From NCBI GenBank assembly GCA_011033025.1, contig WFMF01000183.1, positions 1 to 64,000 on the forward strand: 64,000 nt of DNA, given 5' to 3'. Both the position numbers and the translations under genes were made by a program. The notes below the pieces were generated by a model. It had not been told where the DNA came from. It made no database searches and was given only the letters and a program-made list of their open reading frames with translations. Shown here piece by piece: positions 20,131 through 64,000 of the stretch (its first letter is position 1; the number at the start of each line of letters is the position of its first letter). This stretch comes from Beroe forskalii (lineage: Eukaryota; Ctenophora; Nuda; Beroida; Beroidae).

Positions 20131-20489
20131 TAACTGCTTTATAACAGGAAAATGCATGTTCAAAGATATGGATAAACTTTTTGACATGTGACAACACAAT
20201 TGGATTGAGATTTTAAAGAATTTTGCTGGAAAAGAGCAGGTTGTAAGGAAAAGGCAAAATGGGTATAACTAAGTAGATTATTTGATTGATTGAGTAATTG
20301 GATTCGACCCCTCACCACACTAATTCCTTCATCATAGAAATAAAACAATGAATTAAAATGTAAATACCAAAAAACATAAACATATTTCATTTTCAGAAAC
20401 CTTCTATTTGGTGATAAGTACCAACCTGAGATTGTGAAACAGCCTCAGGGAAAAATTTAAAAATGTGAATCTTGGAAGCTTTACTGAGA

Positions 20490-20638
20490 TGTCGCCACCT
20501 CTGAGATCGGTGTCTGAAATTTCCACAAAATCACAATATGTACGCGTGTGATACTGATTTAACAGTATATTCACCTACGTACATGGCGCCGCGCGATCAG
20601 AAATTTCAGAAGAATTCTCATTTCTCGAGGTGGCGACA
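20490..20638. mobile_element. 149 bp MITE with TGTCGCCACCTC ends
   Basis: The ends TGTCGCCACCTC and GAGGTGGCGACA are inverted repeats, followed inward by TGAAATTTC and GAAATTTCA. The same ends and inner sequence recur at 63177-63815 around a LINE fragment, so this is a dispersed family. No transposase is present. Confidence 0.75.
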
Positions 20639-20673
20639 CCTGCCTAAGTTAGTTTATTGGTTTGAGATCTCGC

Positions 20674-44100: not shown

Positions 44101-47100
44101 AGTTTAGATTTCAATAATTGGGCACAGAATTACGTCTAGTTACCGAAAAAAGTATGATGAAGGGATGAATGCTTTAATTATTTCAAATTTCACACAAAAG
44201 ACAGAACGCTTTCTTATAACAGACAAACTTCAACATCTTGAGTGTCTTGAACAAATTTCTCGAATATTATTAGAGTATAAGATTATAGACCGTACAATAT
44301 CACACAGAATGCTATGACTATCTTGAATATTATGAACTTTGGTTTCAGTATAATATTGCTGAAAGTATTCATTGATACATTGCGTAATTCACCGGCTCAT
44401 TGGGCACTAGAATGGATTTACATCACTCCAAATAGATCAGCAATAAAACATTTCCTTGTGTTTAACAAAGACCTTCTCCCAGGTACTTAACAGCTGTGCT
44501 CGCCATACAACCGACAGTGAACATGAACCTTAGGATTATCAGTATCAAGTTGATGGGGCATTGTGCGGAGTGGGTGACGGCAAACGAGCAGATTCTCAAC
44601 CACGTGCTACAGAAAATACTATCAGGTAATTATTAAACCTCCAAATACAGAAAATAATATCAGGTAATAGCAAATGATTGGTTCATGAGCGTTACTCAGG
44701 TAACGCGTGAGACGTGAGCGAAGCTAGATGAAAAAGACTTTATTTAACCTCTCTTAAAATCTCTCGCGTTACCTGAATAACGCACACGTGACTCTTCTTT
44801 ATCACGCGATACCCTGGTAACGCCGAACTCCCCTAACCCCTAACATCAGGCGTTACCCTGGTAACGCGTGATTCCCCTTAAATCACGCGTTACCCTGATA
44901 ACTCGTGACTGCCATAGCCCCACGTGTTGTTTCAGAAATGCAGGAGAAACACCTGGCAGGTCACTGCATGACGGCACTGGAACGACTCTGTCAGAGCGGG
45001 AGCCAGGTTTGTTAGGTTTCAAATATTTCCTCCGCTTGGTATAGGTCTCGCCCATGCAGGTGCACCCTATCGGCCTATCCACTCGGCTATAGTAGTCTGT
45101 TTTCAAGTATAAAATCAAATTCTAAAGTCTAAAATATCATCAATGGTTTATATTCTACAGGTGCTGCAAGCCCACACGGAGCTGCTGCTCCAGATTGTGG
45201 AGCAGGCTGTGGATGTGTCAAACAGCGTCCTGACCCAGTTCGTAGAGTGCGTTGTAGGTGGGTGAAACGTTTTCATTGGATACTTAATTGTTTAAATGAG
45301 GCAAGGAAAAATTAACTTATTTTGTAATTCTGCAAAAACTGACATCACAGTGACTATGAGCCTGGATGAGGAATTCATCGATTAAAATTGGAAGAGTGGA
45401 AAAGAAGTAAAGAAGAAAAATTGAACTGGAAATCAATAAAAAGCCCACCGAAAAATTTATCAATTAGAAATAACCTAATAAACGGCTCATTGAATGAATA
45501 AAACTACATCTAGAAATGCAAGATCGGCAGTCTACCAGCATGCTTTATGCGTCAACAAACGAATAAGAGATGAAAATTCCTTTCGCCAATTTCATCATTG
45601 TCGTCGTTTTGGCGTTGCTCAGGGAAAATCCAAAATCCTCCGATGAAAACTTATCACGGCCTATCTATCTATCGACCAGCCAACATATTTATCCCGCCCT
45701 AGTCGGTCAACTAATTGTTGACGACAGATAGAGACTGAGCGTCAATTTAGAATCTTGGGCAATTGCTAATGAAGTAAAAATCATGGTTTGAATGTCAAAT
45801 TGATGACGTTTATCGCATACATATGACTCGTCTACGGAACTTATATTGTAGAAAATGCTTTCATGTTCTTATTGCCGAAAATTTATCGGATGACAATTAT
45901 ATTATTATCTTTTGTTTTACTGCCTCACAAGCTCACACCTGAAAATTGACATGGTCAAATAATTCATTACTTTGATTGGGCTATTACAGAGCTTTAGAGA
46001 GCTCATAATTTAGGAATCAACAAAATAAGGTATTTTCGCACTTCGATGCCTGGGCGTTGTGGTGGCGATAAATAGGCGAATCTGCGTAATCAGTTTTACT
46101 TATCTTAAATCTAGATAATGAAGTCAATCTCAGTTGCATATTTTCAATTGTACTCACTAACGCACCTTAACGTCTAATTTTTATTGAAAAATCAACAATT
46201 GACCCAATTGAATATGCAGAATACTTTATGCAAAAAACTTAAGGTCTGCCCATTTAGGCTGTCTACGCCAATGTTATTCTAGTTTATCTCCATATTAAGC
46301 CGTCCAGTCTAGCAGCCCTCTGTGAGCTTCCTCAATTCCTAACACCTACTACTTTACTATAAAGAAGTTCTGAGTTCTAAGATCATCACCCTATGTTCTA
46401 AGATAGTAAGATCAATAACTTCACAAATAGACATGACTGATGAGGTAGAATAAACGGTGTGGGCTGTGGCTGCAGTTTTGACAGTATGATTTGTTGTCAC
46501 AATGGCGTGGTGTCACCCGATCTGTGTTGTCACATTGACATGTTGTCACCCGATCTGTGTTGTCACATCGACGTGTTGTCACCCGGTATATGTTGTCAAT
46601 ATTCCTACAAATCTCCACTTTCAGGTGTTTGTTGTTATCACCCGCTAGATAAACAGGGTCAGTACCTGACTATGATAGCTAACAGACCTCTCACTAGTCT
46701 GGCTAAAAACCCAGAGGATCCCATCAAAGATGTGAGTCGATCCCCCTAAAGCCCTAATTAAGTAATCAAGCAATTGGGTGATACCAAGTTAATTAATAAT
46801 AAAGTAATTAAGTTGGTTAAGTTGGGCTCCAAATATGTGGGCAAATTCTACCCACCCAGCACATAACGTAAGTGTTTTAGCCCAGCACTTTAAGTGTTAA
46901 TCATCCAATCCTCCGACAGATTGATTGTCTGAGCTCCATATTCCGCGGGTACAAAGGAGACGTGGCCCCCACCGACACTCACCCCCTCCAAGCTGTCTTT
47001 GTGGCTGCCTGGCCCCATCTGTCACGTGCTCTGGTCACGTGTGTTGGGTCTGTCAACAATGTGGAGAGGGTGTGTCGAGCTATCAGATAGATATAGGAAT

Positions 47101-49368
47101 TCTGATTGGTTGTCAGGTGAGATATGTGAATTCTGATTGGTTGTCGAGAATACAAATGAAGATTGAACGTAGCAAGTTGTGATTGGTTGATCCTCTGAAA
47201 AACCGTTCTTATGGTAGTTTCACTCCTGGTATATTTCTGATTGGTTGTTATTCAAATGTCACGCGTTACACGTAACGCATCTTCTTCAGATATGGGTTGC
47301 GGGGTGTGGGGCAACGCACTCCCGAGATTCTGGAGCCTCTGGCGGCTAGTCTGGTACAGCTTTACACTATCAAACCTCACAGCTGTGTGCTTTACCTGTC
47401 TAGGTACATGATCCCAGTGGAATAATATCGGGAATAGGGGAAACTAAATTAAACTCATGAACTGAAATATTTTTTCTGGGCCGCATAATAGAGTGAATAA
47501 TTTTCTGTATTCTCTTCTTGGCTCAGCGAAGTGAAACGAACTTTTTCTGAAATTTAATTAATTTCGTCGAAACTTCAACGTCATCAGAAAGTCAGAAAGC
47601 CTCGAATTTGCTTGTAGAAAAGTATAATGTAGTGTTCCAAGTGTTGTAAATTTTAATAAAAACTGTACAACACTACACAACAATTCTTGACAATTCACTG
47701 CCAACTTCTAGAATAAAAAGCTGAAAAGACTCTAAAATCTGATCGAAATAAGCTTATTTTGACCAGGTTTCACAATGAAGGACTCAAAAGCATGGAATTC
47801 ACTGCTAAAATAGTGAAATTTGCTTTTCTTTCAAATTTTAAATATCCTCTTGTGAACACCTTCAAACTAGTGAAGTTCTCTGTGTTTCTTCAGTGTTATT
47901 GTTGATGAATTCAGTACGGATAAAAGACTCGAAGAGGGATTGCTCGGACTATTTAGTAAGTTCTCTAGATAGTGACGGATCCATCTTATCAAACAATTAT
48001 TCTGAGTCAAAACTTACTCTACAGTCTACACCTAATTCACTATCTCGGCCTAGGCCGAAAATAGATAAACTTTAAGAATTTCGGAAGTTAGCCGAAGCTT
48101 GAGTCTTTTCTCGGTACTCCATAACTTCAGGTGCTCTTGCCCCAAAAACGTTTGAGATTCTGTCTGCTCCTCATGGCTTAGAACGGAACTACGATACCGT
48201 GGACGACTTCTATCGGCTTTGTAGCCGCTACATACAACATCTGGGACCTAGGTGAGTGAGTCTGACATAAGGATAGTTCACATATTACGTAATCAATTTT
48301 TGCCCTTGTTTACAGATTATTAGATTAAAAAATTTCCTTGTGTTCAGATTATCTAACAGCGGCATTCTCCCTCACTTGGTTGACATGGCAACGAGTTGCC
48401 TCGCCCTCCACCAGAAAGACGCCCAATCCTCGGCTATCAAGTTCATAGACTTGGTGCTGCACAGGGCTTCTGTAGAGAAGTGTGTTCCGTGTTTGGAACA
48501 GATGAAGAGGAAGGGACAGGACATGGTCAGTAGGAAACGACCGGTTAACCGAACCGAAATACCGAAAGTGCATGACAATTTGATTTCAGTGGACCCTTGC
48601 GATGCTGCCTCATGGGGAAGAACAGTTGTCAGTTGAATATTTAAAGGTATAATAATATTTCGTTCTTTGGGTAATTTATATGCTCCTAACAGGAGTTTTT
48701 CCTCCCTCCCTCTTACTTCCCCCTTCAACTGTTCCCAGGTCAGTACCATAGTAGCAGGAATAGCAGGGGGTCACCCTTCCTCCCTGCTATCTGACCTTGC
48801 TATCCTGCTACACGACCTTCTGATAGCTTTCCAAGAGGAGGCCAGAGCTTGGTTACGCGCTTCTCTCACCACCATTCCCACAGGTTTGTATTGTGCTATC
48901 ATACCCCGCGCACAAAAAATAGGCGGTTATTTCCAACAATTTAGTAGCGATCACAGTGTAAGTGACGTCATTACGACCGCCTATTTATTTTGAGCGCCCA
49001 TTAATATTAAGTCTTGATGGTGAGTTAGCTTATCCACGGGTTCGTAAGTCCCATTAAAATCAACCAATCAGCGCACGAGTTGACTGTGAGCTCCCACGTT
49101 GATTGGTCATGAAGATTTCGGAATTCTTCGCGTAAGCTAATCACACCACCTCTATTCCCCAATCTTAGAAAGTTAGAATTTTGCTAAAGTTTGGTATACT
49201 TTCTGCTTCGCGATTAACCTCTGTTCACGCCAAATCTTCTCCCAAACCTCAGGACTGTACGTGACTCCAAAGCACATTGAAGAGTTGTACCACAACCTGA
49301 CAGCTGCTTCTACTCAACCCAGGGACACGGCCCGGTTCTGTAAAGAGTTCAACCAGTGCTTCACTTGA
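21872..49368 (+). CDS. TNPO3: Transportin-3, complete 22-exon gene
   Basis: Twenty-two plus-strand exons with matching phases give 2718 coding bases, about 905 residues (human TNPO3 has 923). Landmarks align along the whole human protein: LNEVFAALSILY, WELADSIL, HISLRDSLL, VTQLSLALADLALQMPAW, LTVLPEEVGSR, EISFNFWFQL, SHSCVLYL-like HSCVLYLS, IVDEF, NYDTVDDFYRLCSRYIQ and the C-terminal YVTPKHIEELY. TNPO3 is a HEAT-repeat importin-beta family receptor that carries SR-domain splicing factors into the nucleus and releases them on RanGTP binding; this function is assigned by family. Introns range from 95 bp to 7.2 kb. The weak point is exon 16, whose donor reads AT instead of GT. The last eight exons are duplicated downstream. 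An alternative, importin-13, is less likely given the residue matches. Confidence 0.93.
23122..24337. other. TNPO3 intron 4, part 3' of the nested receptor gene
   Basis: AT-rich intron sequence with no plus-strand exon. The segment adjoining 24338 should include the 3' untranslated region and polyadenylation site of the minus-strand glutamate receptor. Confidence 0.5.
24338..27214 (-). CDS. Ionotropic glutamate receptor subunit, single exon
   Basis: An uninterrupted 958-residue ORF. Order: signal peptide (1-17, ends FVHC), amino-terminal domain (about 20-410), ligand-binding half S1 (about 445-565), membrane segment M1 (about 570-594), pore loop (647-668), M3 (673-700), ligand-binding half S2 (about 703-840), M4 (851-880) and a 75-residue cytoplasmic tail. 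The Arg that binds the ligand alpha-carboxyl group is Arg536 (SSIRREYIDF), SST at 727-729 matches the S2 helix motif, and the residue equal to AMPA Glu705 is Asp771, as in NMDA-type subunits. The Q/R site is Gly660 (GGGLVGQGGE), and the M3 gating motif is MYAANLTAF instead of SYTANLAAF. The M1-pore loop is long and Cys-rich (CVCTKC). Ligand and subfamily are undecided; glycine-type non-bilaterian or Epsilon-class receptors are candidates. It lies antisense inside TNPO3 intron 4. Confidence 0.93.
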   Translation of the reverse strand: MPHPIILLISLLSFVHCQQEYEFGFMLNSNDNYGTAFEKIINFAIDKFNNGTDQVTLTPKIHHYDGTSLYKMVNEACDLLTEEIDLIISPSYSDSIGVQADVFNKVDMPVIGTSATDSHLITGSRDELFLLPPLDEMQAHVIVDILSKYGWMKPSIIASDSNYGIHGVTFFQKLLVETTAEVSVKEEFDTSVYFFKAEDNPEDIDISDITTNVLDTMDRVFVLHCEDFYGKYVLKKAHEAGLMGETFVWIVTESITSSPQNLKIYYNETDKNGYYPKYYDGLLGISLYVDTESTNYRTFKEEALVASQGTLKEDDLIPIVAMLYDAVTMAGQAIEENLAPQNVALPPNTACGEEPWAGSDYIVNSLVGHQYEGATGTYRFMPNKTTTMTSKYRIVNFRDPGNGGASMFTGIGTWTSKERLKMTSSDVLFLGGVKEPPRGLPNSLNGRHMRVGAVHGPPFALNPTGCKDIRCWSGITPTIVEKLALALNFTYEFVVPKDNKYGHYNETTKVWSGMVGDLLENKIDMIAMDLSVSSIRREYIDFTIPFLETGVSAIIKGESKTNTMFFFLSPFGFSTWAAVLFSFVVFALFQTMISKLSPYDNNGKVRFAASKCVCTKCSLESHHMADTAEVCLVEEAEAECEESKTTILNALWVVGGGLVGQGGEPLPRSPSGRVVLLTWWFFVMLIINMYAANLTAFMTLDKVGIPIKTPIDLLGQSQYGWGIRPKSSTNNFLTRHSNEEFRRLAEKSTKMDSFDSSMAAVNEGGFAFFDDHLWLEYNISNNCDVFFVGEKLLAVPVAFGLPMQSPYARLLNKHILGYRETGYFKELWKEMGTGTRNCGNDNIGNDKTLDVATLIGIFYVLILGLAAGIVFLVIEFICASIADRQKNTSFCSRLGDRISAVLCSRKRSSSNHNNGVIPVVNLNGKSKQVRIQRNEPGDMVNGNNYIAAVMRSRGDEKC
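27215..30293. other. TNPO3 intron 4, part upstream of the nested receptor gene
   Basis: About 3 kb without a supported gene. It must contain the minus-strand promoter and 5' untranslated region of the receptor. A short palindrome, ATGAGATC...GATCTCAT, occurs near 27991-28022. The last ~250 bp before exon 5 is pyrimidine-rich, as expected for the acceptor. Confidence 0.5.
30294..45257 (+). CDS. TNPO3: TNPO3 exons 5-14 (central HEAT repeats)
   Basis: Exons: 30294-30466, 31797-31950, 34597-34709, 38136-38245, 38397-38513, 40781-40895, 41605-41740, 44483-44625, 44936-45006 and 45161-45257. All are bounded by GT-AG and join in frame. Protein landmarks include YLKLGAARREEI, MTYIHVFRCWGSWLVLG, CYEAACDAICSATYAME, KTPGKDLGELG, EISFNFWFQLAE, the acidic PEDFEEASSDEDDFLEFR and MGHCAEWVTANEQIL. 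The acidic run matches the acidic EETDDFGEFR segment of human TNPO3. Large introns 6, 7, 9 and 11 carry repeats listed separately. Confidence 0.9.
31951..32095. repeat. Purine-rich GGTGAAAAGTGGGGAGATA repeats
   Basis: Starting right at the donor of exon 6, variants of GGTGAAAAGTGGGGAGATA repeat at roughly 16-22 bp over 140 bp. The strand bias is strongly purine-rich. Because the repeat includes the GTGAAA donor motif, it may offer decoy donor sites (inference). Confidence 0.7.
32100..34150. other. TNPO3 intron 6, no gene recognised
   Basis: AT-rich intron sequence of about 2 kb without a convincing ORF or RNA gene on either strand. Confidence 0.5.
34165..34290. repeat. ~57 bp tandem duplication
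   Basis: ACTCGTCCTATTTCTCATCA followed by AACTACAAA.GAAAT.CC occurs twice in direct orientation (about 34170 and 34228). It lies in intron 6 of TNPO3. Confidence 0.75.
34712..34858. repeat. ~40 bp minisatellite with TGACGTCATTATCA core
   Basis: Four units, each with GATGACGTCATTATCAGG (or one-base variants) and TTAGAGTGGGGAATT, start directly after the exon 7 donor. The first two units hold the CRE-like palindrome TGACGTCA. No function is implied by the sequence alone. Confidence 0.75.
34860..38135. other. TNPO3 intron 7, no gene recognised
   Basis: About 3.2 kb of AT-rich sequence. The single end motif GCGCACAAAAATTAGTCGGT near 36649 resembles one end of the MITE at 48908, but no partner end was seen. 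The ORF near 36317-36571 has no recognisable domain. Confidence 0.5.
38514..40780. other. TNPO3 intron 9, no gene recognised
   Basis: It contains a G-run (about 39046-39060), a hairpin built on GAATTCCAAGAA/TTCTTGGAATTC at about 39908-39953, and a 23 bp direct repeat at about 39765-39792. The 152-residue ORF at 38935-39393 includes the G-run as poly-Gly and shows no domain. Confidence 0.5.
41245..41475 (+). mobile_element. tRNA-derived SINE
   Basis: An internal RNA polymerase III promoter is visible: A box TAGCGCAGTGG at 41258-41268 and B box GGTTCGATTCT at 41310-41320, 41 bp apart, as in a tRNA gene. The tRNA-like head is followed by a ~150 bp unrelated body ending in a TAAACTCTAAATAAACTCT tail. 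A true tRNA is excluded because no full cloverleaf with an acceptor stem closes around the boxes. It lies in TNPO3 intron 10, in the sense direction. Confidence 0.8.
42069..43180. mobile_element. 1.1 kb TA-flanked element with 24-26 bp inverted termini
   Basis: The left end starts GGGTAGAGCGGGGTAACTTT (after TA at 42067-42068). The right end is its exact reverse complement, before TA at 43181-43182; the match spans 26 bp including the TA. The motif TTCAAAGTTACCCC, in either orientation, occurs about nine times, concentrated near both ends and around 42250-42290. TA flanks suggest a Tc1/mariner-type non-autonomous element. No transposase ORF is present. It lies in intron 11 of TNPO3. Confidence 0.85.
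43518..43626. repeat. Near-perfect 45 bp-arm hairpin
   Basis: The left arm begins GTTACCTGATGTC and contains AGCTAGCATGATGGCT. The right arm contains AGCCATCATGCTAGCT and ends GACATCAGGTAAC. A loop of about 20 bp separates them. The size and pairing suit a very short MITE, or a small-RNA hairpin if it is transcribed with TNPO3 intron 11. Confidence 0.75.
44690..44910. repeat. Intronic palindromes built on GCGTTACC/GGTAACGC
   Basis: Between exons 12 and 13 the core GGTAACGCGTGA and its inverse TCACGCGTTACC recur about six times, often as GCGTTACCCTGGTAACGC. A diverged copy, CACGCGTTACACGTAACGC, lies at about 47262-47279. The arrangement allows several alternative hairpins. Confidence 0.7.
45258..46450. 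other. TNPO3 intron 14, no gene recognised
   Basis: AT-rich intron without a gene. Its 3' end, from about 46420, begins the segment that is duplicated at about 50690. Confidence 0.5.
46490..46605. repeat. TGTTGTCAC minisatellite upstream of exon 15
   Basis: Units of about 20-30 bp built on TGTTGTCACCCGATCTG and TTGTCACATCGACG repeat four to five times. The counterpart in the second copy is at 50770-50890. Confidence 0.8.
46625..49368 (+). CDS. TNPO3: TNPO3 exons 15-22, copy 1 (C-terminal region)
   Basis: Exons: 46625-46731, 46920-47086, 47290-47403, 47894-47955, 48131-48251, 48348-48525, 48739-48883 and 49253-49368 (stop TGA). Landmarks: PLDKQGQYLTMIANRPL, GDVAPTDTHPLQAVFVAAWP, HSCVLYL, IVDEFSTDKRLEEGL, DTVDDFYRLCSRYIQHLG, HQKDAQSSAIKFIDLVLH and YHNLTAASTQPRDTARF. 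In known TNPO3 this region binds RS-domain cargo. Every intron is GT-AG except after exon 16, where AT replaces GT at 47087-47088; the next in-frame codon reached by read-through is TAG. Confidence 0.9.
48908..48996. mobile_element. ~90 bp MITE, copy 1 intron 21
   Basis: The ends GCGCACAAAAAATAGGCGGT and ACCGCCTATTTATTTTGAGC form an imperfect inverted repeat around a TGACGTCA-containing centre. The same element sits at the same place in the second copy (about 62258-62348), so it predates the duplication or the allele split. Confidence 0.65.
49025..49140. mobile_element. MITE, TTAGCTTA...TAAGCTAA family, copy 1 intron 21
   Basis: Same family as 14523-14638: ends TTAGCTTA and TAAGCTAA, inner ACCAATCAGCG and TTGATTGGT. 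The orthologous insertion in the second copy is at 62383-62498. Confidence 0.7.
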
Positions 49369-49371
49369 TGT

Positions 49372-49560
49372 TGCCATGGTGACGTGTTGTCATATTGTCA
49401 TAGTGATGACATGTCATGGTGACATGTTCTCACGGTGACATGTTGTCATGGTGACATGTTGTCATATTGTCATAGTGATGACATTTAATAATGATATGTT
49501 GTCATGGTGGCATGTTGTGTTAATGACATGTTGTCATGGTGTCAGTGGCATGTCCTCAAA
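49372..49560. repeat. TGTTGTCATGGTGACA minisatellite after the TNPO3 stop
   Basis: Units of about 18 bp on the theme ATGTTGTCATGGTGAC start four bases after the stop codon and repeat about eight times with variants. They would form the start of the 3' untranslated region. The second copy has a cleaner array at 62720-62850. Confidence 0.85.
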
Positions 49561-49569
49561 GTGCCTGAG

Positions 49570-50470
49570 TTCTCTTTGTTAAAAGATCTAAAGATGATCA
49601 ATGCTCTTCTGTTCTACCGTGAAAATCACGATAGGTATATTATTATCTATTCTGCAAGAATATGGATTTAATCACTGTTCAACGCGATTTTGAGTAACGT
49701 CATGATCGTGATTTGAGTTGGCAAATTGATGACGTGCCAACGTCTCATTAACTTGCTTGAGAAGTTCGAATACATCAGGTTTAATTCATATAGGTTGCAT
49801 GTCCTTCATGAATTAAATGCATTACAGTAATATTTAGTAGAAAAATCGGAATTTACAATACCGGTGGCGTATTATAATATACGCCGCAGGTTATAGTGCG
49901 TTTTGATTTTATGATATAATAAAATATTATATACTACCTATATTTACATTTTACTTAGATTACAAGTACATGATATGGTGCTATTTTTAACTAATCTATA
50001 TCCAGAAAGAATTCAGAAACCACTAAAACCACTCACATATTAAAACAAGGAATTGTTTCTTTTCCGGAAATGAAACTTATACAGTACGAATCTTTTGATA
50101 TTTTTGACTTAAATTAATCTATGGAATGATTGAATATAATACTTATATAGTTATATAAGCGGGAATGATTCAGGGCAGCCATTCAATAATATTGTAGGCG
50201 GTTGAGAGGCATTATTATCACCTTATCGGCTTTTAAAATTAAAGCCTAAAGTTGTCACTTGAAGACAAAACATTTATGTATATGTGTGCGCCCTTCAAGC
50301 CCGCTATGAATACATCAGAATATAAGATAGCTTGTGCTCTGTCATTACATTTTATCATAACATGCAAAATCATGGCGTGGCGGAAAGAATACTAGCTTTT
50401 TTCTTCATCTAGGCATTTGAAATCGCCATTTTTCAAATTTTCAATGGCGATAAGTGTCAAATTTTAATCG
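49570..50470. other. Downstream flank of TNPO3 copy 1
   Basis: To about 49860 this matches 62865-63140, and 49870-49940 matches 63940-64000, so the duplicated segment continues past the gene. 49941-50470 is AT-rich without a gene; any counterpart lies beyond the window. Confidence 0.6.
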
Positions 50471-50697
50471 TAAAATTTCCGCCGAAAATTTTTTTTTTAA
50501 AAAAGGGTAATAAAAAATTTTTGGGTTTTTTTTTAACGAAAAAACCCGTTTCGGTTAATTTTTAAATATAAATCCTTTTTAAAAAAATTTTTTAAAAAAA
50601 CCCCGGAAAATTTTTTTGTTTTTTTTTAAAAATTTTTTTTTTTTTCAAAAAATTTTTTAAAAAAAAAAAATTTTTTGGGGCTTTTTTTATCACGAAT
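50470..50697. other. Abnormal homopolymer-only stretch at the copy junction
   Basis: About 220 bp made almost wholly of runs of A, T, G and C (for example TTTTTGGGTTTTTTTTT and AAAACCCCGG), unlike anything else in the window. It lies exactly between the end of copy 1 sequence and the start of copy 2. It looks like poorly resolved consensus rather than genomic sequence, but real low-complexity DNA cannot be excluded. Confidence 0.65.
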
Positions 50698-50769
50698 AAA
50701 CAAGACTCAAGACTGGTGACATAGCGAGGTAAAATATATAAACGGTGTGGCTGCAGTTTTTGACAGTCT

Positions 50770-50890
50770 GATTTGTTGCCACATTGGCGTGTTGTGCCCC
50801 GGATCTGTGTTGTCACATCGACGTGTTGTCACCAGATATATGTTGTCAAATTGACGTGTTGTCAAGCGATATATATTGTCAATATATTTC
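50770..50890. repeat. TGTTGTCAC minisatellite, copy 2
   Basis: Counterpart of 46490-46605, with units such as GACGTGTTGTCACCAG and TATGTTGTCAAATTGACG. Unit number and sequence differ from copy 1. Confidence 0.75.
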
Positions 50891-50909
50891 TCCAAATCTC
50901 CACTTTCAG

Positions 50910-53900
50910 GTGTTTGTTGTTATCACCCGCTAGATAAACAGGGTCAGTACCTGACTATGATAGCTAACAGACCTCTCACTAGTCTGGCTAAAAACCCAGA
51001 GGATCCCATCAAAGATGTGAGTCGATTCCCCTAATTAATTAATTTAACGATTGGGTAATATAAAGTCTGCAGTTTTGAGTGCGCGGCGTACAGACATGTT
51101 ATTTATTTGTCTTCACGCCGCGCAAACGTATGCCGTGCTCATAAAATTAAAACTGTAGTTCAAACTGACACCGTGAATTTCATATTGTGAAGTGGGAAAA
51201 TAGGGCTCCAAATATGTGGGCAAATTCTACCCACCCAGCACTAAACGTCAGTGTTTTACCCCAGCACTTTATTAAAGTATTAAGTGCTAATCATCCAATC
51301 CTCCGACAGATCGACTGTCTGAGCTCGATATTCCGTGGGTACAAAGGAGACGTGGCCCCTACTGACACCCACCCCCTCCAAGCTGTCTTTGTGGCTGCCT
51401 GGCCCCATCTGTCACGTGCTCTGGTCACGTGTGTCGGGTCTGTTAACAACGTGGAGAGGGTGTGCCGAGCTATCAGGTAGATATTACTATATTATGTGAA
51501 TTCTGATTGGTTGTCAGCTGAGATATATGAATTCTGATTGGTTTTCAGGTGAGATATGTGAATTTTGATAGGTTGTCGAGAATTTATTATGATGAACTTG
51601 CGAGGCAGGTTGTGATTGATTGGAAAACCGTTCGTTATGTATGGTAGTTCTACTCCTGGTATTTCTTATTGATTGTTATTCAAATGTAACGCATCTTCTT
51701 CAGATATGGGTTGCAGGTTGTAACGCATCCTCTTCAGATATGGGTTGCGAGGTGTCGGGCAACGCACCCCCGAGATTCTGGAACCCCTGGCGGCGAGCCT
51801 GGTCCAGCTCTACACCATCAAACCTCACAGCTGCGTGCTCTACCTGTCAAGGTACATGATCCCAGTGGAATAAAATATCGAGAATAGGGGAATAAAATTT
51901 AACTGAAATATCAAATAATGACATAATGGAGGGAATAATTTTCAGTTTTCTCTTTTTCTGAAATTTAATTAATTTTGTCAGTTTCAACGTCATCAGGAAG
52001 CCTCAATTTGCTTACGTATAAAAGGATAAAGTAGTGTTCCCAGTGTTGCAAAGTTTAAAAACTTTACAACACTACACATCAATTCTTGACAATTCACTGC
52101 CAACTTGTAGAATAAAAAGCTGAAAGTGCTAAAATCTGATCGAAATAAGCTTATATTGGCTGGGTTTCACCTGGAATTCACTGCTAAAATAAGCTTTTCT
52201 GTCAAATTTTAAATATCCTCTTGAAGTCTCGAGAACACCTTAAAATAGTTAAGTTCTCTAAATAACCGTGTTTCTTCAGTGTTATTGTTGATGAATTCAG
52301 TACGGATAAAAGACTTGAAGAGGGATTGCTCGGACTATTCAGTAAGTTCTCTCGATTGTGACGGTTCTATCTTATCAAACAATTATTCTGAGAGCAAAGC
52401 TTACTATGTACTCTACAGACTACTTGTCTTCATCTAATTCAGTGTTTTAGCCTAGGCCGAATATTGATAAAACTTTAAGAATTTCGGAAGTTAGCCGAAG
52501 CTTGGGTCGTTTCTCGGAACTCCATAACTCCAGGTGCTCTCGCCCCCAAAACGTTTGAGATTCTGTCAGCTCCTCACGGCTTAGAACGGAACTACGATAC
52601 TGTGGATGATTTCTATCGGCTTTGTAGCCGGTACATACAACATCTGGGACCTAGGTGAGTGGGGATAGGTCATTTTGCAAAAATGAACATTTTGCCTAAC
52701 GCTAAAAACTCACACAATTTTGAATTAATCTCTCTCCCCTGACCCTAGTCAGTTTTAGGCCAAATATGTCCAGTTAGGCCATAAGGCTGAATACCGGTAA
52801 GTGGGTCTTACATAATTATTAATATGTAACATGGGAACATATGCAAGTATGCAACAAAGGGAGAAGCCTATAAAATTATAAACTTATAAACTAATAAACT
52901 AATAATTTTCAGAATGGGCTCACATCTTAAGGAAATTACCAATATTGGCAATGAGTATTATAAATCTCAATACTTTAATTATTAAAGTATTGAGATTTTT
53001 CCGTATATTAAAGTTTAATATACGGAAAACTCTTCAAATATCAATTTAGTTGCAAAGTCATGAAATCATATATCGAAGTTTTATTTCCACAAAGTAGGGG
53101 GGTCACGAAAAATTAAAATTTCATAAATACCCATAAATTTGGTACCAAAATGCTCGTCTCAATGAGTAGAACAGATTAACGTTGAGAAAAATTTGAAAAT
53201 TTTTTTTGGTAAAAAATGTTATGACCGTCCTTACAGTTGAGCCGCGCGCAAAACACGCAACGCAACGAATTATGGACGCCGCGCAACGTTTCATCCACTC
53301 TGATTTCCTCCGCAGACGTTTGAGGAAATGCGCGGGGAAACGAAATGATACGTACCGCGAGTGTCAAGCTGAGCTAGCTGAGAGCTGTCAGCTACTTGAA
53401 ATGTAATTTCTCGAAATGTAATTTTTCCTCGTCCCATCGAGTTTAGTTGAATTTGAATTTGAATATCATAGTGCATTGACTTAAGCTCATACCTATCTAC
53501 TTTATGTTGCCCGTAATATCCTGATTGCTCAAAAACGGCGGAGATATACGTTTTAATTGTATGTGACGAGCGGTTGCATAGTTTATTTTTCAGTATTTTA
53601 TTTTGTTAATATAATATACCAATTCACCCTAGGATTACACACCAACGTGCATAACACCACATATTTCCATAAATAGCAATATGAATGCTGTTGAACTTTT
53701 TGTTATCTGTATCGCGTGTAAATACTTTCAGAGTGTGAGTTTCGGCTAAACATTATACAACTTCCCGTTTTGTCACTTTTTGCGTTACAAAAAGCGTATA
53801 TCCCCGCTGTTTTTGTGAAAACTTAATGCTTTAAGTTAAATGAATGTGAATTATTAAGGATATTACGGGCAACAAGTGGTCAAAATGACCCTAGAGTAGC

Positions 53901-56900
53901 GTAACATTTAACCTTGTTTGACTGTCAGAAACTGGATATGGCCGTGTACCCAGTTTTTTGTTAATAACTCGGGCATTTTTCGATACCACGGTGTTAGACC
54001 CGGTTTGTCACCCGTGCTGGTTTGTCACTCGAATTGTAGTCGATATGCCTCGCGCTCTTACTTCATGCATCCGATCAGGAACCGACTTTTCATCTCAGGA
54101 CTTCAGGACACTTCACCTCGTAATATTTCACCTTGGTTAGGTCCTAGGTTGGGGTTAGGGTCTGGTTTAGAGATAAGGCGTTGGCCGTTGGGTAAGGTTT
54201 GGATTATGGTTAGGGTCAGACCTGGTTGCCGTGAGGTGAAAAGTCGGGCTCCCGCCATTTTACACTCTGATCCCAGTCTGCTCACGACTCTGAACCCAGT
54301 AAAATGTCCATTTACCACTCTGATGCCAATCCATTTAGCACTCTGATCTCAGTTCTCTTACCACTCTCGTCCCAGTTCAATGTCCATTTTCAAGTATGAT
54401 CTAGCCATATTATCCTAGTCCCTCCTTGCTGTCATCCCCCATCCCTAAAAAAGGGGGATGAAATAACCATGGGGGTTGCCCTAATAAATGTCCATTTACT
54501 GAGGGGGAGTGAAAAATTAAGGTCCCTTGCTGAAGAATTTAAAAAATTTGAGATGAAAGGACTCAGTAAATTGTCCATTTCCATGGTCTGTTGCTGTTTG
54601 CTGACCCTTATTCACCTCTGAGTGATATCATGGTCCCTGCTGACTCCTTACTCACCTCTGAGTGATACCATGGTCCCTTGCTGACTCCTTATTCACCTCT
54701 GAGTGATACCATGGTCCCTTGCTGACTCCTTACTCACCTCTGAGTGATATCATGGTCCCTTGCTGACTCCTTATTCACCTCTGAGTGATACCATGGTCCC
54801 TTGCTGACTCCTTATTCACCTCTGAGTGATACCATGGTCCCTTGCTGACTCCTTACTCACCTCTGAGTGATATCATGGTCCCTTGCTGACTCCTTACGCA
54901 CCTCTGAGTGATACCATGGTCCCTTGCTGACTCCTTACTCTGCTACGCACCTCTGAGTGATACCATGGTCCCTTGCTGACTCCTTACGCACCTCTGAGTG
55001 ATACCATGGTCCCTTGCTGACTCCTTATTCACCTCTGAGTGATACCATGGTCCCTTGCTGACTCCTTATTCACCTCTCTGAGTGATACCATGGTCCCTTG
55101 CTGACTCCTTACACCTCTGAGTGATACCATGGTCCCTTGCTGACTCCTTACGCACCTCTGAGTGATACCATGGTCCCTTGCTGACTCCTTATTCACCTCT
55201 GAGTGATACCATGGTCCCTTGCTGACTCCTTATTCACCTCTGAGTGATACCATGGTCCCTTGCTTATTCACCCTCTTGATATCATGGTCCCTTGCTGAGT
55301 GATACCTCTGAGTGATACCATGGTCCCTTGCTGACTCCTTATTCACCTCTGAGTGATACCATGGTCCCTTGCTGACTCCTTTTATTCACCTCTGAGTGAT
55401 ACCATGGTCCACATGGTCCCTTGCTGACTCCTTATTCACCTCTGAGTGATACCATGGTCCCTTGCTGACTCCCTTACTCACCTCTGAGTGATACCATGGT
55501 CCCTTGCTGACTCCTTATTCACCTCTGAGTGATACCATGGTCCCTTGCTGACTCCTTATTCACCTCTGAGTGATACCATGGTCCCTTGCTGATTCTCACC
55601 TCTGAGTGATACCATGGTCCCTTGCTGACTCCTTATTCACCTCTGAGTGATACCATGGTCCCTTGCTGACTCCCTTATTCACCTCTGAGTGATACCATGG
55701 TCCCTTGCTGACTCCTTATTCACCTCTGAGTGATACCATGGTCCCTTGTTGACTCCTTTATTCACCTTGATTCCATGGTCCCTTGCTGAGTGATCACCTC
55801 ATGGATACCATGGTCCCTTGCTGACTCCTTACTCACCTCTGAGTGATACCATGGTCCCTTGCTGACTCCTTACTCACCTCTGAGTGATACCATGGTCCCT
55901 TGCTGACTCCTTACTCACCTCTGAGTGATACCATGGTCCCTTGCTGACTCCTTACTCACCTCTGAGTGATACCATGGTCCCTTGCTGACTTTTATCACCT
56001 CTGAGTGATACCATGGTCCCTTGTTGACTCCTTATTCACCTCTGAGTGATACCATGGTCCCTTTGCTGACTCCTTTATTCACCTCTGAGTGATACCATGG
56101 TCCCTTGCTGACTCCTTATTCACCTCTGAGTGATACCATGGTCCCTTGCTGACTCCTTATTCACCTCTGAGTGATACCATGGTCCCTTGCTGACTCCTTA
56201 TTCACCTCTGAGTGATACCATGGTCCCTTGCTGACTCCTTATTCACCTCTGAGTATACCATGGTCCCTTGCTGACTCCTTATTCACCTCTGAGTGATACC
56301 ATGGTCCCTTGCTGACTCCTTACGCACCTCTGAGTGATACCATGGTCCCTTGCTGACTCCTTATTCACCTCTGAGTGATACCATGGTCCCTTGCTGACTC
56401 CTTACTCACCTCTGAGTGATACCATGGTCCCTTGCTGACTCCTTATTCACCTCTGAGTGATACCATGGTCCCTTGCTGACTCCTTACTCCCCCTGAGTGA
56501 TACCATGGTCCCTTGCTGACTCCTTATTCACCTCTGAGTGATACCATGGTCCCTTGCTGACTCCTTATTCACCTCTGAGTGACTTCATGGTCCCTTGCTG
56601 ACTCCTTATTCACCTCTGAGTGATACCATGGTCCCTTGCTGACTCCTTATTCACCTCTGAGTGATACCATGGTCCCTTGCTGACTCCTTATTCACCTCTG
56701 AGTGATACCATGGTCCCTTGCTGACTCCTTATTCACCTCTGAGTGATACCATGGTCCCTTGCTGACTCCTTATTCACCTCTGAGTGATACCATGGTCCTT
56801 GCTGACTCCTTACTCACCTCTTTCTGAGTGATACCATGGTCCCTTGCTGACTCCTTATTCACCTCTGAGTGATACCATGGTCCCTTTGCTGACGACTCTT

Positions 56901-59900
56901 ATTCACCTCTGAGTGATACCATGGTCCCTTGCTGACTCCTTACTGTCTCTGAGTGATACCATGGTCCCTTGCTGACTCCTTATTCACCTCTGAGTACCAT
57001 GGTCCCTTGCTGACTCCTTACTCACCTCTGAGTGATACCATGGTCCCTTGCTGACTCCTTATTCACCTCTGAGTGATACCATGGTCCCTTGCTGACTCCT
57101 TATTCACCTCTGAGTGATACCATGGTCCCTTGCTGACTCCTTATTCACCTCTGAGTGACTTCATGGTCCCTTGCTGACTCCTTACTCACCTCTGAGTGAT
57201 ACCATGGTCCCTTGCTGACTCCTTATTCACCTCTGAGTGATATCATGGTCCCTTGCTGACTGGACTCCTTATTCACCTCTGAGTGATACCATGGTCCCTT
57301 GCTGACTCCTTATTCACCTCTGAGTGATACCATGGTCCCTTGCTGACTCCTTATTCACCTCTGAGTGATACCATGGTCCCTTGCTGACTCCTTATTCACC
57401 TCTGAGTGATACCATGGTCCCTTGCTGACTCCCTTATTCACCTCTGAGTGATACCATGGTCCCTTGCTGACTTTATTCACCTCTGAGTGATACCATGGTC
57501 CCTTGCTGACTCCTTAATCTCCTCTGAGTGATACCATGGTCCCTTGCTGACATGAAATATTCCCACTCGCCTCTGAGTGATATCATGGTCCCTTGCTGAC
57601 TCCTTATTCACCTCTGAGTGATACCATGGTCCCTTGCTGACTCCTTACTCACCTCTGAGTGATACCATGGTCCCTTGCTGACTCCTTACGCACCTCTGAG
57701 TGATACCATGGTCCCTTGCTGACTCCTTATTCACCTCTGAGTGATATCATGGTCGGCATTGACTTTAGTTTCCTCACCTCTGACTTTGACACCATGGTCC
57801 CTTGCTGACATGAAATATTCACACAGGAGCTATGTTCCATTTATGTTCAAGTGACAATCATGATGGATACTTCACCGACACGTAACTCTTCAAAACAGGT
57901 TATAAACTTTATTTTGGTTGTATTATAGGAAGCCGGGGCAAAAATTCGGATCAAATCCATACTTTAAAATACAATATGCTACAAATAGAGGATCAACATA
58001 TACTTCTGTACAAGATAAACCCTTAAATTCCTTGTGCTCATGGCCATTATTCATTTTTCAGTGTCGTCTGAAATACTTGACACCACTCTGCTACTCAACC
58101 GAATGTTAGCTGCTGATGTACCTACAGTTACCGGTATCTCCACAGTGGCTGATGTACCTGACACTTCTGCTGCTGTTGGTGAACCTCACCGTCCCCTGTT
58201 GAGCTCAACTGGTACCGCAGTTGACTGATTATCATGGTGTACCCACGACTTCTACTTTGATGACCGAGTGGAGTCCCTGACACCAGTGTACATGCCCGAT
58301 TGATGCCTGTGTGGAGTCCCTGACACCAGTGTACACGCCCGATTGATGCCTGTGTGGAGTCCCTGACACCAGTGTACTCGCTAAATTGACGCCAAGCTTA
58401 TCTACCTGACAACACTGCGTAGTATTGGGGAATGTTAAAGGTAATTGTTATGTTATATACTTATAAAGTTATATGTTATCTCCAAACAAAATGGCATCTT
58501 TTTTCGCAGAAATTGGCTGGATCATTGAAACAATGATAAAACTTGAAGTTGATATGGACGTATTATTTCTGAATTCCTGAGGCATTAGGTATACTGAAAC
58601 GTCCCAAATCTTGATTCAGGTGATGACCGTGCTGTATGTTTCAGGTCTGAGTGCCGTGTGGAGTCCCTGACACCAGTGAACTCGCCCAATTGATGACCGA
58701 GTGGAGTCCCTGACACCAGTGTACACGCCCGATTGATGCCTGTGTGGAGGCCCTGACACCAGTGAACTCGCCCAATTGATGACCGAGTGGAGTCCCTGAC
58801 ACCAGTGTACACCTGTACACGCCCGATTGATGCCTATGTGGAGTCCCTGACACCAGCGAACTCGTCCGATTGATGCCTGTGTGGAGTCCCTGACACCAGT
58901 GTACACGCCCGATTGATGACTGTGTGGAGTCCCTGACACCAGTGTACACGCCCGATTGATGACTGTGTGGAGTCCCTGACACCAGTGTACACGCCCGATT
59001 GATGCCTATGTGGAGTCCCTGACACCAGTGTACACGCCCAATTGATGACCGAGTGGAGTCCCTGACACCAGTGTACACGCCCAATTGATGACCGAGTGGA
59101 GTCCCTGACACCAGTGTACATGCCCGATTGATGCCTGTGTGGAGTCCCTGACACCAGTGTACACTCCCAATTGATGACCGAGTGGAGTCCCTGACACCAG
59201 TGTACATGCCCGATTGATGCCTGTGTGGAGTCCCTGACACCAGTGTACACGCCCGATTGATGCCTATGTGGAGTCCCTGACACCAGTGTACACGCCCGAT
59301 TGATGCCTGTGTGGAGGCCCTGACACCAGTGAACTCGCCCAATTGATGACCGAGTGGAGTCCCTGACACCAGTGAACTCGCCCGATTGATGACCGAGTGG
59401 AGTCCCTGACAACAGTGTACACGCCCGATTGATGCCTGTGTGGAGTCCCTGACACCAGTGTACACGCCCGATTGATGCCTATGTGGAGTCCCTGACACCA
59501 GTGAACTCACCCGATTGATGCCTGTGTGGAGGCCCTGACACCAGTGTACATCTGTACACGCCCGATTGATGCCTATGTGGAGTCCCTGACACCAGCGAAC
59601 TCGTCCGATTGATGCCTGTGTGGAGTCCCTGACACCAGTGTACACTCCCAATTGATGACCGAGTGGAGTCCCTGACACCAGTGTACACGCCCGATTGATG
59701 ACCGAGTGGAGTCCCTGACACCAGTGTACACGCCCGATTGATGCCTATGTGGAGTCCCTGACACCAGTGTACACGCCCGATTGATGCCTATGTGGAGTCC
59801 CTGACACCAGTGTACACGCCCGATTGATGCCTGTGTGGAGTCCCTGACACCAGTGAACTCGCCCAATTGATGACCGAGTGGAGTCCCTGACACCAGTCTA

Positions 59901-62719
59901 CACTCCCAATTGATGACCGAGTGGAGTCCCTGACACCTGTGTACACGCCCGATTGATGCCTGTGTGGAGTCCCTGACACTAGTGAACTCCGATTGATGCC
60001 TATGTGGAGTCCCTTACACCAGTGTACACGCCCGATTGATGCCTGTGTGGAGTCCCTGACACCAGTGAACTCGCCCAATTAATGACCGAGTGGAGTCCCT
60101 GACACCAGTGAACTCGCCCGATTGATGACCGAGTGGAGTCCCTGACAACAGTGTACACGCCCGATTGATGCCTGTGTGCAGTCCCTGACACCAGTGTACA
60201 CGCCCGATTGATGCCTATGTGCAGTCCCTGACACCAGTGAACTCACCCGATTGATGACCGAGTGGAGTCCCTGACACCAGTGTACAACTGTACACGCCCG
60301 ATTGATGCCTATGTGGAGTCCCTGACACCAGCGAACTCGTCCGATTGATGCCTGTGTGGAGTCCCTGACACCAGTGTACACTCCCAATTGATGACCGAGT
60401 GGAGTCCCTGACACCAGTCTACACTCCCAATTGATGACCGAGTGGAGTCCCTGACACCTGTGTACACGCCCGATTGATGCCTGTGTGGAGTCCCTGACAC
60501 TAGTGAACTCACCCGATTGATGCCTATGTGGAGTCCCTTACACCAGTGTACACGCCCGATTGATGCCTGTGTGGAGTCCCTGACACCAGTGAACTCGCCC
60601 AATTAATGACCGAGTGGAGTCCCTGACACCAGTGAACTCGCCCGATTGATGACCGAGTGGAGTCCCTGACAACAGTGTACACGCCCGATTGATGCCTGTG
60701 TGCAGTCCCTGACACCAGTGTACACGCCCGATTGATGCCTATGTGCAGTCCCTGACACCAGTGAACTCGCCCAATTGATGACTTCGTGGAGTACCTGTAC
60801 AGGACGCTCCCTCTCTGTGAGCAGAGCTCTGCTCCAGTGCTCCATCTGCTGCGAGATGCACTCCCTCGCTCCTCTCCTCGACCGCATCCATACAAAGAAG
60901 GGAGGTGGCATGAAGATGGTGCTATTTCCCTCTACGTCATTCCTGACCTACCCCTTCCTCTTCACCATTCTGCAGCTGACCATTCAAAATCTAGCGATGC
61001 TCAATTCCGTACCTCTAATTCGATTTGAAATGCAGGCCGCTTGGCCCTCCTAAGATTTTGTGTCGAATGACTTTATGTTACAGTTCTGTATGTAAGGCGC
61101 TGAATAAAATGTATGTGCAGATAAAATAATTTCACAAATGTAAAATTCTTCATCACAAGAGTTCTTAACAGCAATCTTGTAGAATTTAGTATCACCAATA
61201 CTTTTGCATTGTACTATCTCAATTTCTCGATCGGATTGCACTTTGCAGTAAACGTTAGCGCGCATTAAATTTGGCGCCAAATCTAATGCGCGTACTGATC
61301 TTTGTGCTGACATTCTCGTACAATGGAAAAGAAGTTTTTGTCAAAATTTTATCTCGACAACCACTTATCGGATCTGGCTGAAACTTTCAGAATATGTAAA
61401 AAACATAATATACAGACATCCGGATTAAAATAACCATGAAAATCGGTCCATGAGACGAGATATGAGCATTTGTGTTTCGGTTTTGTCCATAACTTCCGTT
61501 TGGATCAAAATTTTTGGAAAAAATTAATCCGGATAGTGCTTCTATGTGTTCTACGGCATATATCCAAATTTCAGACTAAACCCATTCATGCTTTTTGAGT
61601 TATGTCACTTTTAGTGCGAAAAGTTGTGTTACACTTTTTGTCGTAATTTCGTGCTAGTACTTTGTGCGCAAAGAGCTATCACGCGCGTGTTGTGACCCCC
61701 CTACACAAAGGAAACATTTCAATTAAAATTTCTGATCAAATCAGAATGGAAACATTTCCAATTATTAGATTAAAACATTTCCTTGTGTTCAGATTATCTA
61801 ACAGCGGCATTCTCCCTCACTTGGTTGACATGGCAACGAGTTGCCTCGCCCTCCACCAGAAAGACGCGCAGTCCTCGGCTATCAAGTTCATAGACTTAGT
61901 GCTGCACCGGGCTTCTGTAGAGAAGTGTGTTCCGTGTTTGGAGCAAATGAAGAGGAAGGGACAGGACATGGTCAGTAGGAAACGATCGGTTAACCGAACC
62001 GAAATACCGGTTAACTGGGTTATTTATATGCTTCCAACAGGAGTTGTTACTCCCTCTTACTCCCTCTTCAACCTTTCCCAGGTCAGTACCATAGTAGCAG
62101 GAATAGCAGGGGGTCACCCTTCCTCCTTGCTATCTGACCTTGCTATCCTGCTACATGACCTTCTGATAGCTTTCCAAGAGGAGGCAAGGGCCTGGTTACG
62201 CGCTTCTCTCACCACCATTCCAACAGGTAAATATCGCGCTAATATACCCCGCGGCCCGCGCACAAAAAATAGGCGGTTATTTCCAACAATTTAGTAGCAC
62301 GCACAGTGTAAAGGACGTCATTACGACCGCCTATTTATTTTGAGCGCCTATTTAGTCTTGAATCAAGACTCTTGATGGTGATTTAGCTTACCCACAGATT
62401 CGTAAGTCCCATTGAAATCAACCAATCAGCGAACGAGTTGACTGTGAATTCCCACGCTGATTGGTCATCGAAGATTTCGAATCCTGCGTGTAAGCTAATT
62501 ACACTAAATCTATTCTCCAATCTTATAATTCGCAGAAAGGTTGGGATGCTTTTTGCTTCGCGATTAACTTCTGTTCACGCCAAATCTTCTTCCCAAACCT
62601 CAGGACTGTACGTGACTCCCAAGCATATTGAAGAGTTGTACCACAACCTGACTGCTGCTTCCACTCAACCCAGGGATACGGCCCGGTTCTGTAAGGAGTT
62701 CAACCAGTGCTTCACTTGA
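50910..62719 (+). CDS. TNPO3: Duplicated TNPO3 exons 15-22, copy 2
   Basis: Exons: 50910-51016, 51310-51476, 51738-51851, 52280-52341, 52534-52654, 61793-61970, 62082-62226 and 62604-62719 (stop TGA). Each exon is exactly as long as its copy 1 partner and every phase is kept. By eye the encoded residues are the same as copy 1, while silent differences are frequent. All donors are GT, including exon 16 (GTAGAT at 51477). There is no counterpart of exons 1-14 in the window, so the copy cannot make a full protein on its own. It could serve as an alternative 3' end spliced from exon 14, be a recent partial duplication, or be the second haplotype misplaced in the assembly. The exon 19-20 intron is 9.1 kb, against 96 bp in copy 1. 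Confidence 0.85.
51066..51165. mobile_element. MITE present only in copy 2
   Basis: Imperfect inverted repeat: TGCAGTTTTGAG...GCGCGGCGT on the left and ACGCCGCGC...TTAAAACTGTAG on the right. The aligned copy 1 intron (46740-46830) lacks it, so it inserted after the copies separated. Confidence 0.6.
52963..53029. repeat. Two abutting perfect palindromes
   Basis: 52963-52997 pairs AATCTCAATACTTTAA with TTAAAGTATTGAGATT around a 3-base centre. 52997-53029 pairs TTTTCCGTATATTAAA with TTTAATATACGGAAAA around one base. They share the T at the join. Confidence 0.9.
53505..53874. mobile_element. 370 bp foldback element
   Basis: Ends TGTTGCCCGTAATATCC and GGATATTACGGGCAACA are inverted repeats, and pairing continues inward (CTCAAAAACGGCGGAGATATACG against CGTATATCCCCGCTGTTTTTGTG). 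No ORF; a MITE is the likely class. Confidence 0.75.
54580..57808. repeat. 41 bp minisatellite, about 78 units
   Basis: The unit is 41 bp, contains CACCTCTGAGTGATACCATG then GTCCCTTGCTGACTCCTTAT, and includes the palindrome ACCATGGT. Spacing was checked directly (57361 to 57402). Units vary mainly at TATT/TACT/TACG before CACC and at GATACC/GATATC. Several units are truncated or have small insertions (about 54932, 55265, 55780, 56885). The flank at 54250-54380 holds degenerate CACTCTGATCCCAGT repeats. Confidence 0.97.
58256..58390. repeat. 43 bp minisatellite, outlying three units
   Basis: Three units of the 43 bp family stand apart from the main array, separated by about 260 bp of unique sequence (58391-58651). 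They begin with TTTGATGACCGAGTGGAGTC. Confidence 0.9.
58652..60790. repeat. 43 bp minisatellite with ~738 bp higher-order period, about 50 units
   Basis: The unit is 43 bp: GATTGATGCCTGTG, then TGGAGTCCCTGACACCAG, then TGTACACGCCC. Three unit types alternate (GATGACCGAG, GATGCCTGTG, GATGCCTATG). A marker variant with a doubled GTACAC (GTGTACA.CTGTACACG) occurs at 58804, 59544 and 60280, giving a 736-740 bp higher-order repeat of about 17 units. The minus strand has almost no stops in any frame, so long repetitive ORFs of up to 345 residues appear. I regard these as by-products of the repeat, not genes. Confidence 0.95.
60791..61780. other. Unique sequence after the arrays
   Basis: About 1 kb. 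Its first 280 bp has relatively high GC and two overlapping open frames (60775-61053) that could be an exon remnant, with no domain recognised. A minus-strand 87-residue ORF (61313-61050) is likewise unassigned. The last ~40 bp resume the copy 1 intron sequence. Confidence 0.4.
62258..62348. mobile_element. MITE, copy 2 counterpart of 48908-48996
   Basis: Same GCGCACAAAAAATAGGCGGT and ACCGCCTATTTATTTTGAGC ends, at the same intron position as in copy 1. Confidence 0.65.
62383..62498. mobile_element. MITE, copy 2 counterpart of 49025-49140
   Basis: Ends TTAGCTTA and TAAGCTAA with inner ACCAATCAGCG and CTGATTGGT, at the same intron position as in copy 1. Confidence 0.7.
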
Positions 62720-62850
62720 TGTTGTCATGGTGACATGTTGTCATAGTGACTTTTTGTCATGTTGTCATGGTGACATGTTGTCATGGTGACATGTTGTCAT
62801 GGTGACATGTTGTCATGGTGACATGTTGTCATGGTGACAGTGACATGTCC
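62720..62850. repeat. TGTTGTCATGGTGACA minisatellite, copy 2
   Basis: About seven near-perfect 18 bp units directly after the copy 2 stop codon. This is more homogeneous than the copy 1 array, which suggests recent expansion or conversion. Confidence 0.85.
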
Positions 62851-63176
62851 TCAAAGTGACCTGAGTTCTCTTTGTTAAAAGATGATCAATCCTCTTCTGA
62901 TCTACCGTGAAAAACACGATAGGTATATTATGATCTATCCTGCAAAAATATGGATTTAATTACTGTTCAACGCGATTTTGAGTAACGTCATTATCGTCAT
63001 TTGAGTTGGCAATTGATGACGTTTAAACGCCTCATCAACTTGCTTGAGAAGTTTGAATACATCAATATAGGTTGCATGTCCTTCATGAATTAAATGCATT
63101 ACAGTAATATTTAGTAGAAAAATCGGAATTTGCAAAACCGGCGGCGTATAATTAAGTTGTAAGCTTACAACAGAGA

Positions 63177-63815
63177 TGTCGCCACCTCTGAGATCGGTGT
63201 CTGAAATTTCCACAAAACCGGCGCCATTTAGCATATTAAACCATACCTTAAAAAGCTTCATTTCCTACCTGTTGAATTCAGAATAAAATTCAAAATAGCT
63301 CTCCTAGTTTTCAAATGTTTAAACAACCTTGCTCCACAATACCTCAAGGAAATGATTTCTGTAAGAGAAATTAAAAACATCAGTCTCAGACTCGACAATG
63401 ACTTTTATTTCTTGAAAGTTCCTCAACCACCATGCCTTGCGAAAACTGAAGCAGCATTTTCATATTCTGCCCCTAAGATATGGAACAACTTGCCATACAA
63501 CATTAGATGTAGCTCCGAACTTGCTACATTTAAGAAACTTTTGAAAACTTACTATTTTGAGACTGCATTTAATGGAATATAACATTGTTATGGCTTGTAA
63601 ATAGGAATGTTTTATGAATGTCTTGATCTGACACTTTTTGATATCAAACTTTGGCCACGCTTTAATGGCAAAATATTTCCGAAGGTTATATTAGAGATTG
63701 TCTAAGCGTGTTAGAAATTCTTTAAATTTATTTATTTTATAGTATATCCACGTACGTATATGGGCCCGCGTGATCGGAAATTTCAGAATTAATCTCATTC
63801 CTCGAAGTGGCGACA
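63177..63815. mobile_element. TGTCGCCACCTC-ended element containing a LINE tail
   Basis: The ends match the MITE at 20490-20638 (TGTCGCCACCTCTGAGATCG on the left; TCGAAGTGGCGACA on the right), but the middle is ~490 bp longer and holds a LINE fragment. The direct repeat TTGTAAGC (63157-63164 and 63819-63826) lies just outside. The whole insertion is absent from the matching place after copy 1 (about 49870). Confidence 0.7.
63235..63582 (+). pseudogene. LINE reverse-transcriptase C-terminal fragment
   Basis: The plus-strand frame encodes PYLKKLHFLPVEFRIKFKIA, LLVFKCLNNLAPQYLKEMIS, AFSYSAPKIWNNLPYNIR and FKKLLKTYYFE, ending at TAA 63580-63582. This is the conserved tail found after the RT domain in CR1/RTE-like and jockey-like elements. 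About 115 residues remain, with no RT catalytic motif. It differs from the copy at 19533-20130, so at least two LINE lineages are present. Confidence 0.85.
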
Positions 63816-64000
63816 CCTTTGTAAGCGTATATCCGTACAACCTTGATATTCACCAATCACAATAATGTTTGCGGAAGTAAGAAGGTTCTGTCGCACGCCG
63901 ATTGGTCATATCACTAGCAGATGGACCTGTGAGTAAACTGGTATACGCCGCTGGTTGAAGTGCGTTTTGATTTAATCATGATATCAAATATTATATATAC

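Follow-up and report, generated by a model that had tools for sequence, protein, structure and literature searches.

The closest described counterpart of the locus reported here is the heterotype false duplication, an assembly artefact for which adjacent copies, false exon gain and a gap between the copies are on record (PMC9516828, in the part cited here). The same part of that report lists as features of false duplications a sequence break, half read depth over both copies, linked reads and 1-copy k-mers. How far two sequences from one species can diverge is illustrated by two further systems. For the ctenophore Hormiphora, variation of 2% (single-nucleotide) and 3.2% (combined) is given in the cited part of PMC8527503, while the barnacle Balanus improvisus reaches a nucleotide diversity of ~5% in coding sequence and ~20% at fourfold sites, which makes its assembly difficult (PMC8270832, as far as cited here).

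Here, we analysed a window of 64,000 bases from Beroe forskalii, comprising bases 1–64000 of contig C229 (341,409 bases) in an assembly of 216 Mb and 1134 contigs. In this window, the 3' part of the transportin-3 gene (TNPO3) is present twice. We conclude, with a probability of about 0.9, that two haplotypes of the same locus were joined into a chimeric window and that the second copy is an assembler artefact, a heterotype false duplication. Similar to the cases in the cited part of PMC9516828, the copies are adjacent on the same scaffold, only part of the gene is affected, a break lies between the copies and divergent haplotypes would be the cause. The published cases differ in that they stem from platypus and birds, show another level of divergence and contain a gap, whereas here the break is homopolymer junk. 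The break is therefore one in a wider sense only, consisting of 204 bases of junk that hold no N. The differences between the copies are of the kind expected between haplotypes: silent and noncoding changes, indels, and insertions in one copy only.

The TNPO3 gene and its two 3' ends

The identity of the gene, which a sequence-only reading had given as TNPO3, is confirmed by protein comparison. The 335-residue 3' part of the gene matches transportin-3 at chain positions 606–906 with an E value of 4e-38 (phmmer). Three of the four upstream open stretches tested also match, with E values from 8e-5 to 6e-4 across the three: 30109–30477 (+) at positions 149–213, 31613–31951 (+) at positions 214–262 and 38301–38528 (+) at positions 337–376. 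The fourth piece, 41493–41786, gave no match to transportin-3. Exon numbering (1–22) follows the sequence-only reading throughout.

30109..38528, + strand: upstream TNPO3 coding stretches, three pieces matched (protein matches); without a second copy for 37600–39000
46625–46731, 46920–47086, 47290–47403 and 47894–47955, + strand: copy 1, exons 15–18 (splice sites, translation)
48131–48251, 48348–48525, 48739–48883 and 49253–49368, + strand: copy 1, exons 19–22 (splice sites, translation)
50910–51016, 51310–51476, 51738–51851 and 52280–52341, + strand: copy 2, exons 15–18 (splice sites, translation)
52534–52654, 61793–61970, 62082–62226 and 62604–62719, + strand: copy 2, exons 19–22 (splice sites, translation)

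Exons 15–22 do occur twice as had been claimed, at 46625–49368 and 50910–62719, with all eight exon lengths, the reading frame and the stop codon equal. For exon 17 of copy 2, there are two candidate acceptors with signals at 51699 and 51733, and the equality in length requires the second. At the donor of exon 16, copy 1 has AT (47087–47088) and copy 2 has GT; the AT is possibly a consensus error or the mark of a damaged allele. A whole-genome search scored 40 of 1328 candidates, and none of the 57 matches listed represents a third copy of the exons. The companion claim that exons 1–14 occur only once holds for 37600–39000, which has one match in the genome search. For the wider query 30000–46430, the matches listed are dominated by the repeat at 42067–43182 and do not include the query's own place. 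This repeat resembles a transposon, has perfect terminal inverted repeats of 26 bp and is seen at at least 39 further places of ~0.8–1.15 kb with 88–99% identity (39 of 3617 candidates scored).

The homology between the copies is wider than the exon spans given before and extends over two blocks, at ~46421–50485 and ~50690–64507, which are separated by nothing but bases 50486–50689.

46421..50485, + strand: copy 1 block, with exons 15–22, the last part of the intron preceding them and 3' flank (BLAST, pairwise alignment; outer limits approximate)
50486..50689, no strand: seam, 204 bases of stretched-homopolymer junk (run-length statistics)
~50690 to C229:64507, + strand: copy 2 block, running past the end of the window (BLAST, pairwise alignment)
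52662..61754, no strand: repeat insertion of ~9 kb in intron 19, copy 2 only (alignment); parts recur elsewhere on the contig
63150..63941, no strand: insertion of ~0.8 kb in the 3' flank, copy 2 only (alignment)

We infer that the copy 1 block represents one haplotype, A, and the copy 2 block the other, B. The homology between them ends at ~46421 and ~64507, and bases 64508–71500 show no match of at least 200 bases when compared within 294 kb of the same contig. Copy 2 is by far the longer because of its intron 19, where the insertion contains two satellite arrays, one with a 41-bp unit (54598–57754) and one with a 43-bp unit (58654–60797). Two stretches of the smaller insertion recur at 20472–20530 and 20557–20641, and this insertion is probably a transposon.

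Two further features lie towards the start of the window. An ionotropic glutamate receptor is encoded at 24341–27223 (−) in a single open frame of 961 codons, with one genome match at the DNA level. Compared with solved structures, its ligand-binding part is closest to ML032222a (E 2e-60) and 4zdm (1e-51), followed by 1e-21 for the next; ML032222a is a Mnemiopsis receptor and 4zdm a Pleurobrachia receptor, and this ranking points to a probable ctenophore source. With the whole receptor protein, kainate receptors outrank ML032222a. The best match of ML032222a in this genome is at 48%, which makes Mnemiopsis itself an improbable source. The contig itself starts with a tandem array of a ~4-base, CTAA-like unit (1–575).

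Divergence between the copies

The protein encoded by exons 15–22 is unchanged between the copies, as had been judged by eye. In 1010 nt per copy (336 codons including the stop), we find 52 differences, all of them synonymous, and no nonsynonymous difference; on translation, the copies agree at 335 of 335 residues. Coding divergence is 5.1%. At fourfold sites, 30 of 164 positions differ (18%), and synonymous divergence amounts to 0.216 per site uncorrected and 0.25 corrected. The many silent and intron differences noted earlier are likewise real: outside the exons, a MAFFT alignment that covers intron 19 by ~39 bases only contains 48 gap events and shows differences in 362 of 2668 aligned columns (13.6%). 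BLAST reports a lower value of ~7% mismatches between the blocks, exons included, because it discards the worst parts.

If one branch had been free of constraint, the probability that all of its ~26 changes stay silent would be ~7e-17. The substitution pattern thus indicates that both copies are under purifying selection and are kept functional. With 0 nonsynonymous changes among 52, both copies appear to have stayed working, as alleles do, while a stranded 3' fragment should decay.

For alleles, the synonymous divergence of 0.22 is extreme. It is far above the 2% and 3.2% of Hormiphora, which counts against reading the copies as alleles. The averages reported for Balanus improvisus, at ~5% coding and ~20% fourfold diversity, resemble the 5.1% and 18% found here, and such divergence within a species is therefore possible. 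Balanus improvisus is a barnacle whose values are averages over genes, in contrast to a single ctenophore locus at which the two copies are putative alleles.

Duplicated stretches are also seen elsewhere in the assembly. A chaperonin gene (Cpn60/TCP1) is present twice in inverted orientation, ~32 kb apart, at C558:174546–180283 and 212610–217435. This pair differs by 26 synonymous and 0 nonsynonymous changes in 398 codons (pS 0.098), where the 398 codons are those of six Pfam-matched stretches and include a stop where the reading ran beyond the end of an exon; restricted to stretches of equal length, there are 9 synonymous and 0 nonsynonymous changes in 186 codons. On the contig analysed here, window bases 1589–8964 have an inverted homologous counterpart at C229:119290–124440 with ~85–94% identity. 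One member only of this pair carries a 0.95-kb element (4063–5009) with ~204-bp terminal inverted repeats (90%), which is found nearly full-length at at least 39 further places (40 of 369 candidates scored). Both the chaperonin pair and the inverted pair on C229 may have arisen either as copies from two haplotypes or by a genuine inverted duplication, and neither serves here as a yardstick for allele divergence.

The seam at 50486–50689

The 204 bases between the blocks stand out within the 294 kb of the contig that were compared. In the seam, 76% of bases lie in homopolymer runs of at least 4, compared to a contig mean of 8.6% (SD 0.064, 294 kb), and the mean run length is 4.0 versus 1.39 for the contig. 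The seam is the maximum of the 294 kb; the next separate place, a C-rich repeat, reaches 0.46. Runs of N do not occur in the window (0). Used as a query against the genome, the seam finds low-complexity matches in at least 28 other contigs (40 of 49 candidates scored). Clusters of stretched-homopolymer matches lie at C485:157692–161710, C489:45144–50318, C1040:8709–12496 and C392:152623–155036, among others.

Three of the junk places, on C171, C547 and C883, were read and have mean run lengths of 2.4, 4.8 and 4.5. One of these pieces consists partly, and two consist wholly, of the same unnatural text as the seam. Because this text is found at three places in other contigs, we take the seam to be assembly junk, a consensus from very poor reads. 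The three pieces are 500-base stretches taken from beside junk islands, and since they too are wholly or partly junk, the islands are longer than expected. Milder junk may be present at contig ends: a homopolymer fraction of at least 0.30, a threshold set after inspection of the data, is seen at 5 of 21 readable ends versus 24 of 1578 interior windows (Fisher p 2e-5; Mann–Whitney p 0.03 with 22 ends). By eye, three of the five high ends (C381, C803 and C192) resemble mild junk, and the homopolymer-rich interior windows include natural-looking repeats.

We also considered whether copy 1 continues, in degraded form, into the seam, for which the comparison is suggestive only. Aligned with the continuation of copy 2 over 215 bases, the seam scores 92, a value that no shuffle (0 of 1000 for either side) and no random place (0 of 500) reaches, but that 2 other tiles of 5863 equal. 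Its first 110 bases alone score 56, which 4 and 14 of 1000 shuffles reach and at least 8 other tiles exceed. With runs collapsed, the comparison carries no signal, as 2298 of 5000 random places score as high.

Origin of the duplication

The main evidence for a join made by the assembler is the position of the junk, which sits exactly where copy 1 ends and copy 2 begins. In the proposed course of events, the contig would follow haplotype A through TNPO3 to 50485, ~1.1 kb beyond the stop codon, where the sequence of haplotype A would enter the low-quality stretch 50486–50689. The contig would then restart on haplotype B ~220 bases upstream of exon 15 and continue along haplotype B. We infer an allelic relation between the copies and attribute the join to a read that was poor or came to its end. 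The overlap of 4 kb would have stayed unmerged because the haplotypes differ by ~14% in aligned noncoding sequence, by many indels and by the 9-kb and 0.8-kb insertions. With one copy removed, a single ordinary gene would remain. The haplotype alternative raised by the sequence-only reading is thereby supported: the blocks meet at junk, the tested flanks are single and both copies are fully constrained. That the glutamate receptor and 37600–39000 are single also counts against it, since a separate second haplotype is not found there; purging of that haplotype would explain this.

The level of divergence bears on whose haplotypes these are. Copies from two pooled animals, from cryptic species or from a hybrid, brought together by the same assembler join, would account for a pS of 0.22 and a noncoding difference of 13.6%, both high for the alleles of one animal, and the seam fits this origin equally well. 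From the data at hand, it is indistinguishable from alleles of a hyperdiverse species. We regard it as a minority possibility, which in part falls within the preferred reading of two joined haplotypes. The damaged exon 16 donor of copy 1 would agree with a genuine partial tandem duplication without function, in which one copy is a decaying pseudogene fragment. Many nonsynonymous changes would be expected in a fragment released from constraint, and there are 0 among the 52 differences. Unless its loss of function was very recent, the substitution pattern contradicts this origin, and we consider it extremely improbable.

A real tandem duplication could also have been retained in use. Exon 14 would then be joined to one 3' cassette or the other, both being under selection and each having a separate terminator and 3' UTR. 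The equal exon structure and the 335 of 335 identical residues are compatible with such an arrangement, and the chaperonin gene on C558 is another duplicated stretch with differences that are silent only. Trans-spliced leaders, present on many ctenophore mRNAs according to the cited part of PMC8527503, could in principle rescue a cassette that lacks a promoter. Against this, both cassettes yield the same protein, and thus no protein variant is gained. Splice sites are not intact in both, as the AT donor in copy 1 would spoil the nearer cassette, barring a consensus error. Reaching copy 2 would presumably require the skipping of eight exons and a stop codon, and the copies are linked through assembly junk, which would have to coincide with the breakpoint by chance. 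The alternative cassettes that the sequence-only reading had offered as its second explanation are therefore disfavoured, and we hold them to be improbable. A real tandem arrangement in a place that is hard to sequence, with the cassettes kept for different 3' UTRs or reached by trans-splicing, would be the most unusual reading; we judge it very doubtful.

We conclude that the duplicated 3' end of TNPO3 is in all probability not a real feature of the Beroe forskalii genome. Given that the assembly carries stretched-homopolymer junk, any tandem duplication, gene count or intron size taken from it needs to be checked against reads. Should both copies be alleles from a single animal, this locus would be very diverged compared to the Hormiphora value and close to the figures for the barnacle, a hint of very high allelic diversity.
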